Assembly (NCBI RefSeq): GCF_000269965.1
Contig: NC_017219.1
Coordinates: forward strand, 868,001 to 932,000
DNA from: Bifidobacterium longum subsp. infantis ATCC 15697 = JCM 1222 = DSM 20088
GTDB lineage: Bacteria > Actinomycetota > Actinomycetes > Actinomycetales > Bifidobacteriaceae
Direction of reading: 5' to 3'
Length of the DNA: 64,000 nt
Made by a program: the position numbers and the translations under genes. Every line of letters begins with the position of its first letter. Position 1 is the first letter of the stretch. This document shows positions 8,354 to 51,642 of this stretch, piece after piece. Below the pieces are notes generated by a model. The model had not been told where the DNA came from. It made no database searches and saw only the letters and a list, made by a program, of their open reading frames with translations.

Positions 8354-10168
8354 ATGACCGATTCCGAGACCGTATTTTCCACCGTAGACGCCGTGACCGG
8401 CATCGATATCGACAACGAACGCCTCGATAACGCGGATGATCTGGCTGAATATTCCGAAAGACACCGCCAGGCCGTCCTTGACGCGCCGGTGATGCTGCGC
8501 GTGCGCGAGCTCGACAAGTCCTTCGAGGGGCTGCACGCCGTCAACAAGGTCTCTTTCGACCTGCATCAAGGTGAGGTCATTTCCATCATCGGCCCGAACG
8601 GTTCGGGAAAATCGACCACAATCAACCTGATCTCCGGTTTTCTGCAGCCTGATTCCGGGCTCATCGATCTTGCCGACGAGCCGGTTGCCGGTCTGAGCCC
8701 TGCGGACATGTCTGAACGGGGACTGCTGCGCACCTTCCAGAACGGTCGTGTGTTCGGCGGTCTTACCGTCGAAGAAAACATCAATCTCGGATATCACCGG
8801 CGACTCGTCGCGGCACGCCCGTTCAAAAGCCTGCAAAGGTATCCGATCGCGCGTTGGCTGTCGTTGCTCGCCGAGACCGGCGTGGCGCTGGTTCCCGGAC
8901 CGCGGACTCGGCGCGAAGCCGATGAGGTGAACATCCGCGTGGATCGGGAAATCGACCGTTTCCGTGAACGACTGAGCGCGCGTCGACGGGATTGCACCTA
9001 CACGTTGTCGTACGCGAATCGTCGTCGTACCGAAATCGCCCGTGCCCACATCAGCGAACCGAAGATCCTGCTGCTCGATGAGCCGACCGCCGGCATGAAC
9101 CAGTCGGAGACCGCCGAAGTGCTTCGTCAACTGCAGTATCTGAAAGCGCAGGGACATACCATCCTATTGGTCGAGCACAAGATCGATCTGGTCACTGCAT
9201 TGTCCGACCGTGTGCTTGCGATGGATGGCGGCCGCGTCATCGCGCAAGGCGCCCCGGATGATGTGCGCAATGCCCCGCAGGTGGTCGAGGCGTATCTCGG
9301 CAAGCGGCGTGAAATGAACCATACCCGGGTCGCCGGGCAGTCGCATGTGCTTGCGATGCAGAACTCCATTGGCGCCGTCGTCGAAGTCGAGGACACCGGT
9401 GCCGGTACCGGACGAGATGAAACCGGGACGTTGGATGATGGCGGGGATGCCCTGCTTGCGCTCGATGGAGTGAATGTGTATTACGGGCAGGTCCACGCGT
9501 TGCAGAACGTGTCGATCTGCGTACCCAAAGGGGCCATCGTCTCTCTGCTGGGAGGCAACGCTTCCGGCAAGTCGACCACGATGAAGACGATTTTGGGCAT
9601 CAATCATCCGAAGACCGGTTCGCTGTGGTTCCAAGGCGAGGATGTGACCGGACTGTCCACGCGCAGACGGGTCCAAGCCGGTATCGCCGCCGTGCCCGAG
9701 GCGAGGCGCGTGTTTCCGCAGATGACGGTGGAGGAGAATCTGTTGTCTGGCGCCTATACGCGACACGACAGGGAGGGTGTGGCCGGCGATCTGGAAGCCA
9801 TGTACGATCGCTTCCCTCGTTTGAAGGAACGTCGTATGCAGCAGGCCGGCACGATGTCCGGCGGCGAGCAGCAGATGCTGGCGTTCGCGCGAGCCCTGAT
9901 GAGTCGCCCGAAAATCATCTGCATGGACGAGCCGACGATGGGCTTGTCTCCCAAACTCGTCGAAGACGTACTCGAACAGATAGCGCGACTGCGTGACGAA
10001 TTGGGCGTTTCCGTGCTCATGGTCGAACAGCAGGCCGAGCTGGCTCTCTCGATCGCCGACTATGGTTATGTGCTGCAGAACGGACGTATCCGGCTGCATG
10101 GCAAAGCCGGCGACCTGCTCGGCAACGAGCGGGTGCAGGAGGCGTATTTGGGAGGAGTGAAACAATGA
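8354..10168 (+). CDS. HAAT ABC transporter ATPase, LivG-LivF fusion
   Basis: The 604-residue protein contains two nucleotide-binding domains. Domain 1 has Walker A IGPNGSGKST near residue 79, Walker B ILLLDEPTAG and a divergent signature LSYANRRRTEIARA. Domain 2 has Walker A LGGNASGKST near residue 400, signature MSGGEQQMLAFARA and Walker B IICMDEPTMGLSP. They match LivG and LivF in order. It powers the fused permease six bases upstream. About 50 N-terminal residues precede the first domain. Its stop overlaps the start of a 24-codon ORF (ATGA). Confidence 0.87.
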   Translation: MTDSETVFSTVDAVTGIDIDNERLDNADDLAEYSERHRQAVLDAPVMLRVRELDKSFEGLHAVNKVSFDLHQGEVISIIGPNGSGKSTTINLISGFLQPDSGLIDLADEPVAGLSPADMSERGLLRTFQNGRVFGGLTVEENINLGYHRRLVAARPFKSLQRYPIARWLSLLAETGVALVPGPRTRREADEVNIRVDREIDRFRERLSARRRDCTYTLSYANRRRTEIARAHISEPKILLLDEPTAGMNQSETAEVLRQLQYLKAQGHTILLVEHKIDLVTALSDRVLAMDGGRVIAQGAPDDVRNAPQVVEAYLGKRREMNHTRVAGQSHVLAMQNSIGAVVEVEDTGAGTGRDETGTLDDGGDALLALDGVNVYYGQVHALQNVSICVPKGAIVSLLGGNASGKSTTMKTILGINHPKTGSLWFQGEDVTGLSTRRRVQAGIAAVPEARRVFPQMTVEENLLSGAYTRHDREGVAGDLEAMYDRFPRLKERRMQQAGTMSGGEQQMLAFARALMSRPKIICMDEPTMGLSPKLVEDVLEQIARLRDELGVSVLMVEQQAELALSIADYGYVLQNGRIRLHGKAGDLLGNERVQEAYLGGVKQ

Positions 10169-10239
10169 GCGAAGCCGAAGGGATTGAGACGTCCTCGCAT
10201 CCGTCCGTCATCGCCGTCACGCAAAGGAGGTTCCGGTGA
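10165..10239 (+). CDS. 24-residue coupling ORF between transporter and amidohydrolase
   Basis: ATG at 10165 overlaps the TGA of the fused ATPase gene (ATGA), and the ORF's own TGA overlaps the GTG start of the amidohydrolase (GTGA). The peptide is MSEAEGIETSSHPSVIAVTQ plus RRFR. The amidohydrolase ribosome-binding site (AAAGGAGG, 10223-10230) lies inside it. The double overlap suggests a translational relay; the peptide may have no function of its own. Confidence 0.5.
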   Translation: MSEAEGIETSSHPSVIAVTQRRFR

Positions 10240-11438
10240 CCGCAGCAACAACCCAATCGGGCGCATCCCCGACGGCGTTCGTAGCACTTCCCGATGCTCT
10301 GAACGCTGATGTGCAGGAATGGTACCGCTGGTTCCATCGTCATCCTGAACTCTCCTATGAAGAGTTCGGCACCACGGCGCGCATCCTTGAGATTCTGGAA
10401 TCGCATGGCGTTGAAATCCTCGAATCGGGACTCAGGACCGGCGTGGTGGCCATCGTGCGCGGCGCAAGCGCCAAGCCCGTCATCGCCCTGCGCGGTGACA
10501 TCGATGGGCTGCCCATCACTGAGAATACCGGACTTGACTACGCTTCGGATAATGCCGGAGTGATGCACGGCTGCGGTCATGACTTCAACCTCACCGTGGC
10601 GTTGGGCGCGGCGATTCTGCTCAATGAACGGCGTGCCTCATTGCCTGGTACCGTCAAGATCATCTTCCAGCCGGCAGAGGAAGGTCGTGCTACCGCGGAG
10701 CGCCCCACGGGTTCCGTGCAGGTGCTGAACACGGGTGTGCTGGACGATGTCGAGGCGTTTTTCGGCACGCACGATGCAGCCGGACCGGTTGGGTCCATAC
10801 TCATACGTGAGGGTGGCATCACCGGCGCGGTCGACAAATTCCAGGTTGCCATTCACGGCAAGGGCGCGCATGCAGCCGAACCGGAGGATGGCATCGACCC
10901 GATCACCGTGCTGACGAACGTGGTGCAGGGGTTGCAGGCGGTCATTGGGCGCAATCTCGACCCTAGCCATCCGCGGGTGTTGTCCGTCACCCATATAGAA
11001 GCCGGCAATTCGTGGAATGTGATTCCGCAGGATGCCTTCTTCGAGGGCACGGTGCGCACTACCGAGCCGCAGGATCGGGTTCTCGCCAAGAAGCGCGCCA
11101 TCGCCATCATCAACAACACGGCCGCCGCCTACGGTGCCACTGCCGATGTCTCGTGGTTCTTCGGATCGCCTTCCGTGTTCAACGACGCCGGATGGACCCG
11201 CATCGGACGAGAAGTCATCGCCGAGCAGGGGCTTCACGCGGATGATGATCATCCTCAACTGGGAGGAGAGGATTTCTCATATTACCTTGATCGCAAGCCC
11301 GGCCTGTTCGTGCACATCGGTGCCGGTGAGACCGGTGCCGCGCATGGGCCGACGTTCCGGCCGAATCCGGCCGCCATCGGCTACGGCATACGCTTTCTCA
11401 CGGCCATCGCGCAGAAAGCGCTCAACGAGTTACGATGA
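10236..11438 (+). CDS. M20-family amidohydrolase (hippurate hydrolase/aminoacylase type)
   Basis: This 400-residue zinc peptidase-fold enzyme has metal-site segments ALRGDIDGLPITENTG, MHGCGHDFN, FQPAEEGRA and the late HPQLGGEDFSYYL; the inserted dimerisation domain contains KGAHAAEPEDGIDPI. Family members release free amino acids from N-acyl conjugates or amides in the cytoplasm. The GTG start is set by AAAGGAGG six bases upstream. It is coupled to the HAAT importer, so it probably hydrolyses what that importer brings in (inference). Confidence 0.87.
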   Translation: MTAATTQSGASPTAFVALPDALNADVQEWYRWFHRHPELSYEEFGTTARILEILESHGVEILESGLRTGVVAIVRGASAKPVIALRGDIDGLPITENTGLDYASDNAGVMHGCGHDFNLTVALGAAILLNERRASLPGTVKIIFQPAEEGRATAERPTGSVQVLNTGVLDDVEAFFGTHDAAGPVGSILIREGGITGAVDKFQVAIHGKGAHAAEPEDGIDPITVLTNVVQGLQAVIGRNLDPSHPRVLSVTHIEAGNSWNVIPQDAFFEGTVRTTEPQDRVLAKKRAIAIINNTAAAYGATADVSWFFGSPSVFNDAGWTRIGREVIAEQGLHADDDHPQLGGEDFSYYLDRKPGLFVHIGAGETGAAHGPTFRPNPAAIGYGIRFLTAIAQKALNELR

Positions 11439-40643: not shown

Positions 40644-41843
40644 TTACCGGCACACCTCAGCCATCCTCTCTGCAAACTCATCCAAAAAACGTCCCGAATC
40701 CACACCAAGTGCCACATGCACATGCGGCATGGAATGATTCACCAGCCCAACCGGGTCTCCGGTGGTCCGGCCTCGTACTCCATTGAAATCACCGGTATTG
40801 GTCTCCGCGCGCAACGCAAGATCAAAACAATCGACCAGTGAAGAGTCAAGTGCAACCGCCGCCGCCAACGGATCATGCAACGGCATGCCGCCAGAGAACA
40901 GTGCGGTGTCGGCTTCCAAATTTGCCTTGATGGAAAAGTCCGCGAGATCAGCCAAGAACCGCCCGCGCTTGGTCCCCGTTGCACGCCACCGGTCGGCCGC
41001 CGATCGCGTTAGCAAACACTGGTGAGTCACATCAAGTCCCACCATTGTGATGTCTGCGCCGGAATGAAATACACGATTCGCGGCCTCAGGGTCTTGGATG
41101 ATATTCGTCTCGGCCACCGCATCCCAACAATTGCCGGGTTGGGTAAGCGTACCTCCCATCATCACCAGCCTGAGTTTCGACGCAATATCCGGTGCCCGAG
41201 TAATAGCCGCATCCACATCCGTCAACGGCCCGGTAGACAGCACGGTAACGTTTCGACCAAACTCGCGAACCTGCTCAATCAGATACTCAATCCCATCCGC
41301 AGCATCAACGGAGCACCTCCTTGTGCCCCCGCTGACGAGAGCTGTCGATGTAGCCGACTGGGGGCGGTCCACAGACCGAAAGCGACCCACACGAGGATAA
41401 GACCCCAACGCCGGATGAGCATGAGCGTCCCCTACCAAATACCCGCCAACAGAAACAACCCCATCGGGCACATCCACAGACATGTCATCCCCAGACATAT
41501 CACCAGGCACACCAGCTCCATCAGCCAGAGCTCCGGACCCAGCCAGCCAAGTATTCCCCAGTCCATCATCCCCATGGAACTGGGCACACCCTGCATCAGG
41601 AATGAACGCATCAGCCCAAGAAGGATGCTCAGAGCCCAAAAACACCGGAATATCCGACCGACCAAACAAATCAAGCACCGCGCGAGTATTGGCATAAGCC
41701 GTGTTCGCATCCACATTGCCATAACTGGCGATCACACCGCTCAGCTCGCACTCATCCGCCGACCCCAACAAATACGCCAACGCCAACGCATCATCAACAC
41801 CGGTATCCATGCTGGCAATAATGCGGTCAAGACATTGGACCAT
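40644..41843 (-). CDS. Nucleoside hydrolase (IUNH family) with large internal insertion
   Basis: The 399-residue ribonucleoside hydrolase-like protein cleaves the N-glycosidic bond of nucleosides, releasing ribose and base. Seen: IASMDTGVDDALALAYLLG (Ca-site Asp cluster), NVDANTAYANTRAVLDL, TVLSTGPLTDVDAAI, VMMGGTLTQPGNCWDAVAETNI and DVTHQCLLT. Usual length is 310-340; the extra length sits between residues about 95 and 175, and part of it is encoded by a repeat (41325-41365). AGGAGG precedes the start. Confidence 0.83.
   Translation of the reverse strand: MVQCLDRIIASMDTGVDDALALAYLLGSADECELSGVIASYGNVDANTAYANTRAVLDLFGRSDIPVFLGSEHPSWADAFIPDAGCAQFHGDDGLGNTWLAGSGALADGAGVPGDMSGDDMSVDVPDGVVSVGGYLVGDAHAHPALGSYPRVGRFRSVDRPQSATSTALVSGGTRRCSVDAADGIEYLIEQVREFGRNVTVLSTGPLTDVDAAITRAPDIASKLRLVMMGGTLTQPGNCWDAVAETNIIQDPEAANRVFHSGADITMVGLDVTHQCLLTRSAADRWRATGTKRGRFLADLADFSIKANLEADTALFSGGMPLHDPLAAAVALDSSLVDCFDLALRAETNTGDFNGVRGRTTGDPVGLVNHSMPHVHVALGVDSGRFLDEFAERMAEVCR
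41325..41365. repeat. Miniature palindromic repeat inside the nucleoside hydrolase gene
   Basis: Six-base terminal inverted repeat GCCCCC (41325-41330) / GGGGGC (41360-41365). Bases 41339-41364 match 40615-40642 at most positions (GAGCTGTC..TGTAGC.GACTG..GGGG). In the protein this adds about 14 residues (around DRPQSATSTALVSGGTRR) without breaking the frame. Confidence 0.6.
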
Positions 41844-47420: not shown

Positions 47421-47453
47421 GACGTCAATCGATTTACGTCAATCGATTGACGT
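47421..47453. promoter_or_regulatory. Two overlapping LacI-type operators in the permease promoter
   Basis: Operator A, ACGTCAATCGATTTACGT (47422-47439), and operator B, the perfect palindrome ACGTCAATCGATTGACGT (47436-47453), share four bases; centres are 14 bp apart. On the minus strand TTGACG of B lies 17 bases before CATAGT, a plausible -35/-10 pair for the permease, so bound repressor would cover the promoter. The LacI gene next door is the obvious binder. Confidence 0.75.
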
Positions 47454-47485
47454 CATCGGCGTGTCGTACCCGTTCGACATGCAAA

Positions 47486-50047: not shown

Positions 50048-50449
50048 TCATTGCACGAAATCGCTATTTTCATTATATTGCTGCTTTCCCTTGAGCCCAG
50101 GAACGGTATGGGAACCCCGGCCGTAAGCGAAGATTGGTACAGCCGAATGCCAGCGGTCCGATGGTTGCGCTCGCCAATGGGAAGACAGACTGCCGGATCG
50201 TATCGAACCAAGTATCAGGTTAGTGATTCCCAACACCAATGGCCAGTGCAGCACCATACCGGGGAACCATACGAACAGGTTTTTGGCAGCCCTGTCAAGG
50301 ACCTCGTCGGGCATGAGATACATTGATGAGCTCCACTGCAGCAGCAACAACACCGCTATCAGTACAACCATGCCAATCCAATGCGCGCGGTTCCATGTGA
50401 ACAGTCGTTGCGTCCCGCGCTCGGCGGCGGACTGCCTTGCGGAGTTCAT
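50048..50449 (-). pseudogene. Possible membrane-protein gene or remnant upstream of the serpin
   Basis: This minus-strand frame of about 133 codons ends 32 bases before the serpin start. It has two convincing membrane segments (HWIGMVVLIAVLLLLQW; NLFVWFPGMVLHWPLVLGI) separated by a polar loop, then a tail after about residue 85 that looks random. I recall a membrane protein gene co-transcribed with serpins in related bifidobacteria; this may be a frameshifted relic. Start and integrity are uncertain and no good ribosome-binding site is seen. Confidence 0.4.
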
Positions 50450-50596
50450 ACTCGTTGCCATTGTGGGGTGGATGGCGTTTCGTCCGGTCACCGGATGCGT
50501 GGCGGTGGCTCTTCATCCAGTGGGTCTGACAGCGCAGGGCGGTCGGGAAGCGACTTCACCGGAAGCGCCCATGAATCGAGCGGTTCTTCTGCCGAG

Positions 50597-51000
50597 CATC
50601 GCACTGGGCAAGTGATTCTTGGTGCGATTGCCTTCTATGGTGTGATGCCAGTGGCCGTGCTGTTTATTGGCTTCATGCTTGGTGGCATGGCGGCGCGATG
50701 GAATCACGAACGCAGCTTGGCTCGAGCGGAGTTGGCTCACCGCCGTCAGCAGGAACGCACAGCTCAGGACATTCACGATTACGTATCCAATGATTTGGCA
50801 TACCTGATTTTGCGATTCGACAACAATATTGCCGATGGCAAGACCCCTTCTGAAGAAGAATTACGCGAACTGCGTAGCGTGGCTATGGGCGCATTGGATC
50901 GCACGCATCAGGTCATTGATGTTATTGAAGGCAGGGGAGAAGCGGCGCACAGTGCAGTGACTCCGCATGATTCGACCGTTGATGCCGCTTCTGGCATTGC
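50597..51000 (+). pseudogene. Truncated sensor histidine kinase
   Basis: The plus-strand frame holds a membrane segment (LGAIAFYGVMPVAVLFIGFMLGG) followed by a coiled linker and an H-box of the HisKA_3/NarL-partner type, RRQQERTAQDIHDYVSNDLAYLIL, and the second helix RSVAMGALDRTHQVIDVI. The ATPase domain is missing: the frame dissolves after about 50950 and stops at 51109. Upstream sensing region is also not recognisable. It may be the relic of the two-component system that controls serpin in relatives (inference). Confidence 0.55.
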
Positions 51001-51076
51001 AACTGCGCGAGCGTTTATATGCCCCACTTACGCTCTTACCCTGTTGAAAGAAGGAAAAAGGCAGAGCCGTGATTCC

Positions 51077-51216
51077 CATGGGGCGGTAAAACACTCATGG
51101 GGCGGTTAGCGGATTTTGCCTTTCCGCAGAATAGAGCCGTTTTCGCCTACCGCCCCATGAAGGTTTTACCGCCCCATGAGATATTTACCGCCCCATGGGT
51201 GAGCTACCGCCCCATG
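51077..51216. repeat. Iteron-like array of TACCGCCCCATG with exact 19-bp period
   Basis: Four direct copies begin at 51148, 51167, 51186 and 51205, each 19 bases apart (12 conserved, 7 variable). Two inverted copies, CATGGGGCGGTA/T, lie at 51077-51088 and 51096-51107, also 19 bases apart. The period is not a multiple of three, so it is not coding. It looks like a cooperative protein-binding array. Confidence 0.85.
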
Positions 51217-51264: not shown

Positions 51265-51642
51265 CTACTTCGCCCGCTTGTCGGCGAGGATCTCGTCCAC
51301 CAGCTTGGGCTTTTCGGTCAGCTGGCCGGTGAAACCGGGACGGATATCCATGTGCAGCACCAGAGAAGTGCGGTAGCCCTGCTCGGCGAGCTTCTTGGCG
51401 GCCTCACCGGCCACCTTGAGCACGTCGTCCAGATTGCCTTCCACGTTGGTGAACAGGGCGTTGGTTTCCTGCGGCAGGCCGGATTCGCGAATCACTTCGA
51501 CGGCCTGAGCCACGTATGGCGAGACCTCGGAGCCCACGCCATTGGCCGACACCTGGATGGCGGCCACGGTATTGAGGTACGGTTTGCCGGTTTCCGGGTC
51601 GATCGGCACTTCCTGGGTAACGGCATTACGGTCAAGAACCAT
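51265..51642 (-). CDS. Thiamine-binding protein, MTH1187/YkoF-like (DUF77)
   Basis: The 125-residue protein contains TVAAIQVSANGVGSEVSPYVAQAVEVIRESGL and ALFTNVEGNLDDVLKVAGEAAKKLAEQGYRTSLVLHMDIRPG (in two runs), the ferredoxin-like fold of the MTH1187/YqgV family that binds thiamine or its precursor. It follows thiD on the same strand, consistent with a thiamine role. AAAAAGGAG precedes the start. Confidence 0.82.
   Translation of the reverse strand: MVLDRNAVTQEVPIDPETGKPYLNTVAAIQVSANGVGSEVSPYVAQAVEVIRESGLPQETNALFTNVEGNLDDVLKVAGEAAKKLAEQGYRTSLVLHMDIRPGFTGQLTEKPKLVDEILADKRAK

Follow-up and report, generated by a model that had tools for sequence, protein, structure and literature searches.

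The window analysed here is a stretch of 64,000 nucleotides from Bifidobacterium longum subsp. infantis ATCC 15697 (NC_017219.1, positions 868,001 to 932,000), and the feature under study is an array of a repeated 12-mer, TACCGCCCCATG, at window positions 51077-51216. We consider it fairly likely that this array is a non-autonomous copy of a repeat family that is dispersed in Bifidobacterium and has a cognate nuclease of the DUF559/MTES_1575 type. Our best reading, drawn by analogy, is a system resembling a REPtron, in which a Vsr-type nuclease would take the place of the HuH transposase. The evidence consists of the anatomy of the array, the dispersal of its relatives, their position at gene ends in one genome, their linkage to the nuclease gene, the replacement of elements in place between species and the predicted fold of the nuclease.

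Anatomy and dispersal of the repeat

The array contains five exact copies of the 12-mer and one copy that agrees at 11 of 12 positions. A sequence-only reading of the window had described six copies, four direct and two inverted, locked to a 19-bp period. Their number, positions and orientations stand, but the copies are not all identical, the one at 51096 carrying a mismatch, and the 19-bp period is kept inside each arm and lost across the core, where the copies at 51096 and 51148 are spaced by 52 bp and out of phase. The two arms, inverted relative to each other, are directed away from a central core of 40 bp (51108-51147). For searches across the genus, a sequence-only model, R1, was built from 12 elements and applied at a cut-off of E <= 0.001. 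The parts of the element are as follows.

51077..51216, minus strand (core orientation): whole element, two inverted arm arrays and a core (R1 match at 51077-51178, minus strand, 96.8 bits, with two further right-arm units)
51077..51088, minus strand: left outer arm copy, exact TACCGCCCCATG (sequence match)
51096..51107, minus strand: left inner arm copy with one mismatch, AACCGCCCCATG (sequence match)
51108..51147, minus strand: core, 40 bp (in a 12-element alignment, AAAA(T/C)GGC...ATTC(T/C)GC is kept and the other half is variable)
51148..51159, plus strand: right arm copy 1, exact (sequence match)
51167..51178, plus strand: right arm copy 2, exact (sequence match)
51186..51197, plus strand: right arm copy 3, exact (sequence match)
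51205..51216, plus strand: right arm copy 4, exact (sequence match)

A pair of 12-mers with a 7-base spacer occurs four times in the window when up to three mismatches are allowed, against 0 occurrences in 100 shuffles, and the array has the top score among the six tandem arrays of the window. A long hairpin is predicted over it (-77.9 kcal/mol, z -8.2).

Among the genomes compared, the one nearest to the window is G001, presumably B. longum JCM 1217; a second genome used below, G016, is presumably B. breve. G001 holds 26 exact 12-mers in 10 clusters, all of which have the same anatomy of outward arms flanking a core. Its 12-mers are kept and its 7-bp spacers vary, which is the pattern of conserved 12-mer and phase that the sequence-only reading had proposed looking for in the genus. 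The number of arm units varies at the outer ends and the core is fixed. The cores of two unlinked loci, L019 and L023, are 95% identical, a level that suggests copying. According to gene orientations taken from open reading frames without a gene caller, seven of the ten elements are flanked by genes that converge on them (L003, L006, L015, L019, L021, L023, and L025), those at L010 and L012 lie 3' of one gene and 5' of the next codirectional gene, the placement of L005 is ambiguous, and no element separates two divergent genes at their starts.

Of the 112 Bifidobacterium genomes searched, 25 have R1 matches. Two strands of one element may be listed separately, so that match counts exceed element counts; on the other hand, at most 36 candidates per genome were scored, and large counts may be underestimates. 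Thirty loci from this search were inspected by eye, and nearly all show inverted arms and a core, some with one arm missing or degenerate. The typical copy has two to four direct 12-mers at the 19-bp period on each side of a core of ∼40 bp, the two sides being inverted and pointing outward. The end bases of the inner arms vary by eye over 12 copies (GGTAGG, GGTATC, GGTAAC, GGTGGC).

The exact-pair pattern was also run against the contigs of other genomes, a set from which near records may be left out; it returned 17 stretches, none of them in Bifidobacterium and 15 of them off the 19-bp period, and we treat these as chance. Two loci of a Chloroflexota metagenome-assembled genome (MAG bin116), L042 and L049, carry two and three close matches at a 20-bp period. 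The viral contigs searched with the same pattern gave no match, and a scan against Rfam gave only three matches, all to microRNA families and each under its gathering score. In the open-access literature we found nothing related on a nine-base piece of the 12-mer in Bifidobacterium, nothing on "recombinase in trio" in this genus, and nothing on Bifidobacterium intergenic repetitive extragenic palindromic (REP) repeats with a transposase or on miniature inverted-repeat elements of B. longum.

The DUF559/MTES_1575 gene and neighbouring repeats

In some species, a DUF559/MTES_1575 gene stands beside the elements, near a gene that is conserved in 112 of 112 genomes. A profile made from seven orthologs and run over these genomes separates 12 of them (399-642 bits) from the next score (220), and all 12 orthologs lie within ∼5 kb of the conserved gene. 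R1 elements are present in 11 of the 12 genomes with an ortholog (G066 is without) and in 14 of the 100 others (Fisher p 9e-8, uncorrected for relatedness). At the ortholog loci themselves, R1 matches 11 of 12; L134 has none at threshold, L133 and L144 are weak, and in G005 and G018 the matches lie on both sides of the gene. R1 was not found at any of 18 other DUF559 loci. Nor did it match any of 20 further DUF559 stretches, which include two loci already counted among the 18 and the four other DUF559 genes of G001. The ortholog has apparently been passed on by vertical descent at a single locus, next to copies of the element; at that conserved locus, no trace of it was detected at E <= 1e-3 in G016 and 15 other genomes (the G041 stretch is a short contig). 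At L083 in G005, three closely similar elements occupy 2.2 kb around one DUF559 gene (8700-10900), which suggests recent spread. The ortholog match in G017 (C72:28806-29792) has two in-frame stops and is perhaps a decaying copy.

The MTES_1575 region of the nuclease is Pfam PF18741. In the predicted fold, an AbiEi-like domain (residues 33-174) is joined to a domain like those of homing endonucleases and Vsr. The predicted structure contains the catalytic-domain fold of the EDxHD homing endonucleases and Vsr, to which profile matches are weak, and D214, E225, Y226, G228, H231, and D241, which are invariant in 50 chosen sequences, may include counterparts of the conserved acidic and histidine residues of those enzymes. 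I-Bth0305I, an EDxHD homing endonuclease, is described in an excerpt of PMC3943268 as dimerising on a target that spans nearly 60 bp. The system considered here differs in that short elements without the gene are dispersed, and its cutting is putative. AbiEi antitoxins bind inverted repeats with positive cooperativity, as an excerpt of PMC7319586 has it; here the match is limited to the C-terminal part of AbiEi, and that part is fused to a nuclease. Dimerisation of the one and cooperative binding of the other would fit an inverted array, and we read this as compatibility, not proof. The MTES_1575 Vsr-like restriction endonuclease domain, which belongs to the same Pfam family, has been described within a large HEPN fusion protein (PMC3710099), and neither palindromes nor inverted repeats are mentioned in that text.

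DUF559 matches occur in 81 of 112 genomes of the genus and in 92 of 246 genomes of the class. The loci whose flanks we compared are best matches, mostly one per genome, and not a random sample. Within the genus, 13 of 30 such loci have a block of 45-239 bp common to both sides of the gene, compared with 2 of 215 control placements; L154 and L156 are cut by contig ends and were counted as negatives. The blocks occur at 3 of the 12 orthologs and at 10 of the 18 other high-scoring loci, and a wider flank test gives 16 of 30 against 6 of 209 controls. Several of them, such as those at L145-L149 and L151, are unlike R1 in sequence. Among lower-scoring DUF559 stretches, 4 of 20 have shared flanks (2 of 18 without the repeated loci, L257 being L153 and L258 being L152), so that the link to repeats does not extend to every DUF559 gene. 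Of 29 loci outside the genus, five were dropped as cut by contig ends. At E <= 1e-8 a shared block is present at 13 of the remaining 24, compared with 2 of 200 control placements in 20 genomes with DUF559 matches; at E <= 1e-4 the figures are 15 of 24 and 15 of 200. Fourteen of the blocks outside the genus were inspected, and most are near-perfect palindromes of ∼60-90 bp (those at L201 and L211 are not).

Some of these repeats also occur away from the gene. The block at L148 (1190-1345, G041) flanks its DUF559 gene with copies of 99% identity and is found in at least seven places in G041, two of which flank the gene. A search with palindrome patterns returned nine copies in G153, where two pairs flank two DUF559 genes, 27 in G171, two and no more in G329, placed on either side of its DUF559 gene, and no copy in four of the nine genomes asked. 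The 27 places in G171 hold 61-bp palindromes whose ends, GTTGATCATGGAG, are conserved and whose interiors change but mostly still pair. At L145, L147, L148, L149, and L152, a second kind of element lies by DUF559 paralogs; by eye its core resembles ATTTCAACG or relatives, and its arms are others.

We found no report of a link between DUF559 and repeats in the open-access literature. A bolder proposal, which we advance tentatively and with the balance slightly against it, is that the DUF559/MTES_1575 proteins of Actinomycetes would be enzymes of a new repeat-spreading class, in which joined AbiEi-like and homing-type Vsr domains would copy and exchange their cognate repeats, whether palindromes or arm arrays, at fixed chromosomal sites and rewrite the recognition word in place between species. 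If this is true, it would supply a function for an uncharacterised nuclease family and show that the REP problem has been solved a second time, by an unrelated enzyme; it would also offer a natural case of in-place rewriting of recognition sites between close species.

Replacement in place, proposed mechanism and rival explanations

With one genome per species compared, G016 has elements at the sites of L003, L019, and L021 of G001, and their arms are different. At L019, the near flanks of the two genomes are identical at 94 of 100 and 126 of 150 positions, and the inside at 74 of 140. The contrast between flank and inside is weaker close by at L021 (73/100 and 71/150 in the flanks, 72/160 inside) and L003 (65/100 and 125/150, 76/140), where the genes further out align at 75-96%. 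The elements at these sites have been replaced in place. Their cores are 0.70, 0.57, and 0.53 identical between the two genomes, against a mean of 0.64 for between-species pairs that do not share a locus; the best partner within the same species reaches 0.88-0.95 in G001 and 0.72-0.82 in G016, where the within-species means are 0.68 and 0.70, respectively. The thi locus holds the same element in the window, G001, and G016: the latter two are 96% identical over 3 kb there, and the three elements differ by whole 19-bp units. More distant species have loci in common as well, on both sides of the element (L023 with L065 and L075, L025 with L067, L015 with L079, and L058 with L070) or on one side (L012 with L081, L015 with L059, and L023 with L061). 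The comparison of G001 with G016 gave no clean empty site, and no target duplication is determined as a result: L003, L019, and L021 are replaced elements, thi is the same element, L015 could be matched on a single side, no usable flank match was obtained for L005, L010, L023, and L025 in the chosen stretches, and L006 was truncated by the end of its stretch.

Arm words were counted in 75 stretches, picked by hand from the window and 15 genomes, with a regular expression that presupposes the outer frame of the arm, CA(C/T)-NNN-G(C/T)(A/G)G(T/G). The words differ from species to species: CATGGGGCGGTA in G001, CATGGTGCGGTA in G005, CATGGTGTAGGG in G048 and G017, and CACGGTGTGGTA in G071, with CACCACGTAGTG the commonest in G016. 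Uniformity within species is partial, and the mean identity to the arm consensus within a genome is 0.96 in G001 and G005, 0.94-0.95 in G098, G038, G059, and G017, 0.87-0.92 in G048, G053, G068, G066, G071, G069, and G075, 0.86 in G018, and 0.80 in G016. The sequence-only reading had held that copies decaying at random in related strains would speak against a binding array. Such mixing is partly seen, in G016, which is without the nuclease, and also in G018, G069, and G075 (0.86-0.88), which all have it. Once the distance between neighbour genes is removed, arm-word distance and protein distance correlate weakly (r 0.23, p 0.04, Mantel); the G017 protein enters this test only as a 144-residue fragment, with stops in the match, and the consensus words come from a count in which arms of G016, being near-palindromic, were scored on both strands and one element of G071 was entered twice.

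We infer a mechanism in which the nuclease would recognise the phased arms, probably as several subunits, and would cut at or near the core. Repair of the break would copy the element from another copy, which would lead both to the spread of copies and to the replacement of the interior of a copy while its site stays. The homing-like copying step, taken alone, is in our view possible but doubtful. Several points weigh against a nuclease-driven family as a whole. G038 has at least 35 R1 matches and no ortholog. Uniformity of the arms does not follow the nuclease, as G018, G069, and G075 are mixed with the gene and G038 is uniform (0.94) without it. The arm words proved less uniform on recount, which has lowered our confidence in both the nuclease-linked family and the bolder proposal.

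An unlikely alternative is a miniature inverted-repeat transposable element moved by a transposase of another family or by a tyrosine recombinase, with DUF559 as a passenger or as a defence gene that tends to sit by repeats. Size and dispersal are compatible with such an element, a part for DUF559 in moving DNA would be putative, and G038 is rich in copies without the ortholog. However, DUF559 genes recur between unrelated repeats across several genera, and the variable outer arm number and fixed core of G001 are the opposite of what would be expected for transposon ends. A B. longum mobile element with inverted ends is known in the mobile integrase cassettes, which carry three XerC-type integrases (excerpt of PMC2430713) and whose 96-bp inverted repeat, by eye, starts with a spaced short repeat. 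We rejected the cassette as the identity of the array, as the inverted repeat and palindrome published in that excerpt differ from it by eye.

A cooperative binding array without mobility, for the regulator, replication-type initiator or nucleoid protein that the sequence-only reading had suggested, is quite improbable. That a protein reads the phased array is plausible, given the kept 12-mers and within-arm phase and the varying spacers of G001. Some loci are common to several species, and a protein drifting along with its sites would also yield species-specific words. The role itself finds no support: the ten G001 elements are dispersed at gene 3' ends, seven of them convergent, copies adjoin the nuclease gene at 11 of its 12 loci and none of the other DUF559 genes tested, and identity between cores of unlinked loci reaches 95%. 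Operators would be sought upstream of the genes that they regulate, and in G001 no element lies between divergent starts, with L010 and L012 preceding a codirectional gene.

A structured RNA or transcript-end signal kept as a hairpin between genes would account for the very stable predicted fold and the gene-end location in G001, but it is very improbable. No pair is changed on both sides in the 12 copies (a weak point, as the copies vary little), and the array itself has no terminator-like site. Repeats of the nuclease-linked family may have been co-opted for such a role.

In REPtrons themselves, as an excerpt of PMC8266576 describes them, palindromic repeats dispersed between genes are paired with a cognate enzyme gene that is mostly single-copy and housekeeping-like. 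The present family shares with them the many dispersed intergenic palindromic copies (10 loci in G001, 25 of 112 genomes) and differs in its predicted Vsr-type nuclease and in its repeat, whose phased arms enclose a core and lack the fixed tetranucleotide foot (most often GTAG). Despite the likeness in repeats and single cognate gene, a classical REP or bacterial interspersed mosaic element of a HuH (Y1) TnpA-REP enzyme has a negligible chance: Y1_Tnp (PF01797) is found in 7 of 112 genomes, among the 25 element genomes only in G017, and not in G001, for which this identity is refuted unless a diverged HuH enzyme escaped detection.

Surroundings in the window

The flanking genes named in the sequence-only reading, a truncated sensor kinase, a thiamine-binding gene and a nearby serpin, were borne out. 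The first two flank the array with their 3' ends.

50381..51109, plus strand: truncated sensor-kinase-like open reading frame, 3' end inside the element (HisKA_3 match, E 0.0013, below the curated cut-off)
51265..51642, minus strand: thiamine-binding protein, 3' end towards the element (Thiamine_BP, PF01910)

The final codons of the kinase-like frame extend into the array, and no domain was found in it beyond the weak HisKA_3 match. Elsewhere in the window, GACGTCAATCGATT is repeated 2.5 times in tandem at 47421-47455, at the start of a transporter gene adjoining a LacI regulator gene, and is perhaps a LacI operator cluster. A further tandem, CATCCACAGACATAT repeated 2.1 times, lies at 41471-41502.
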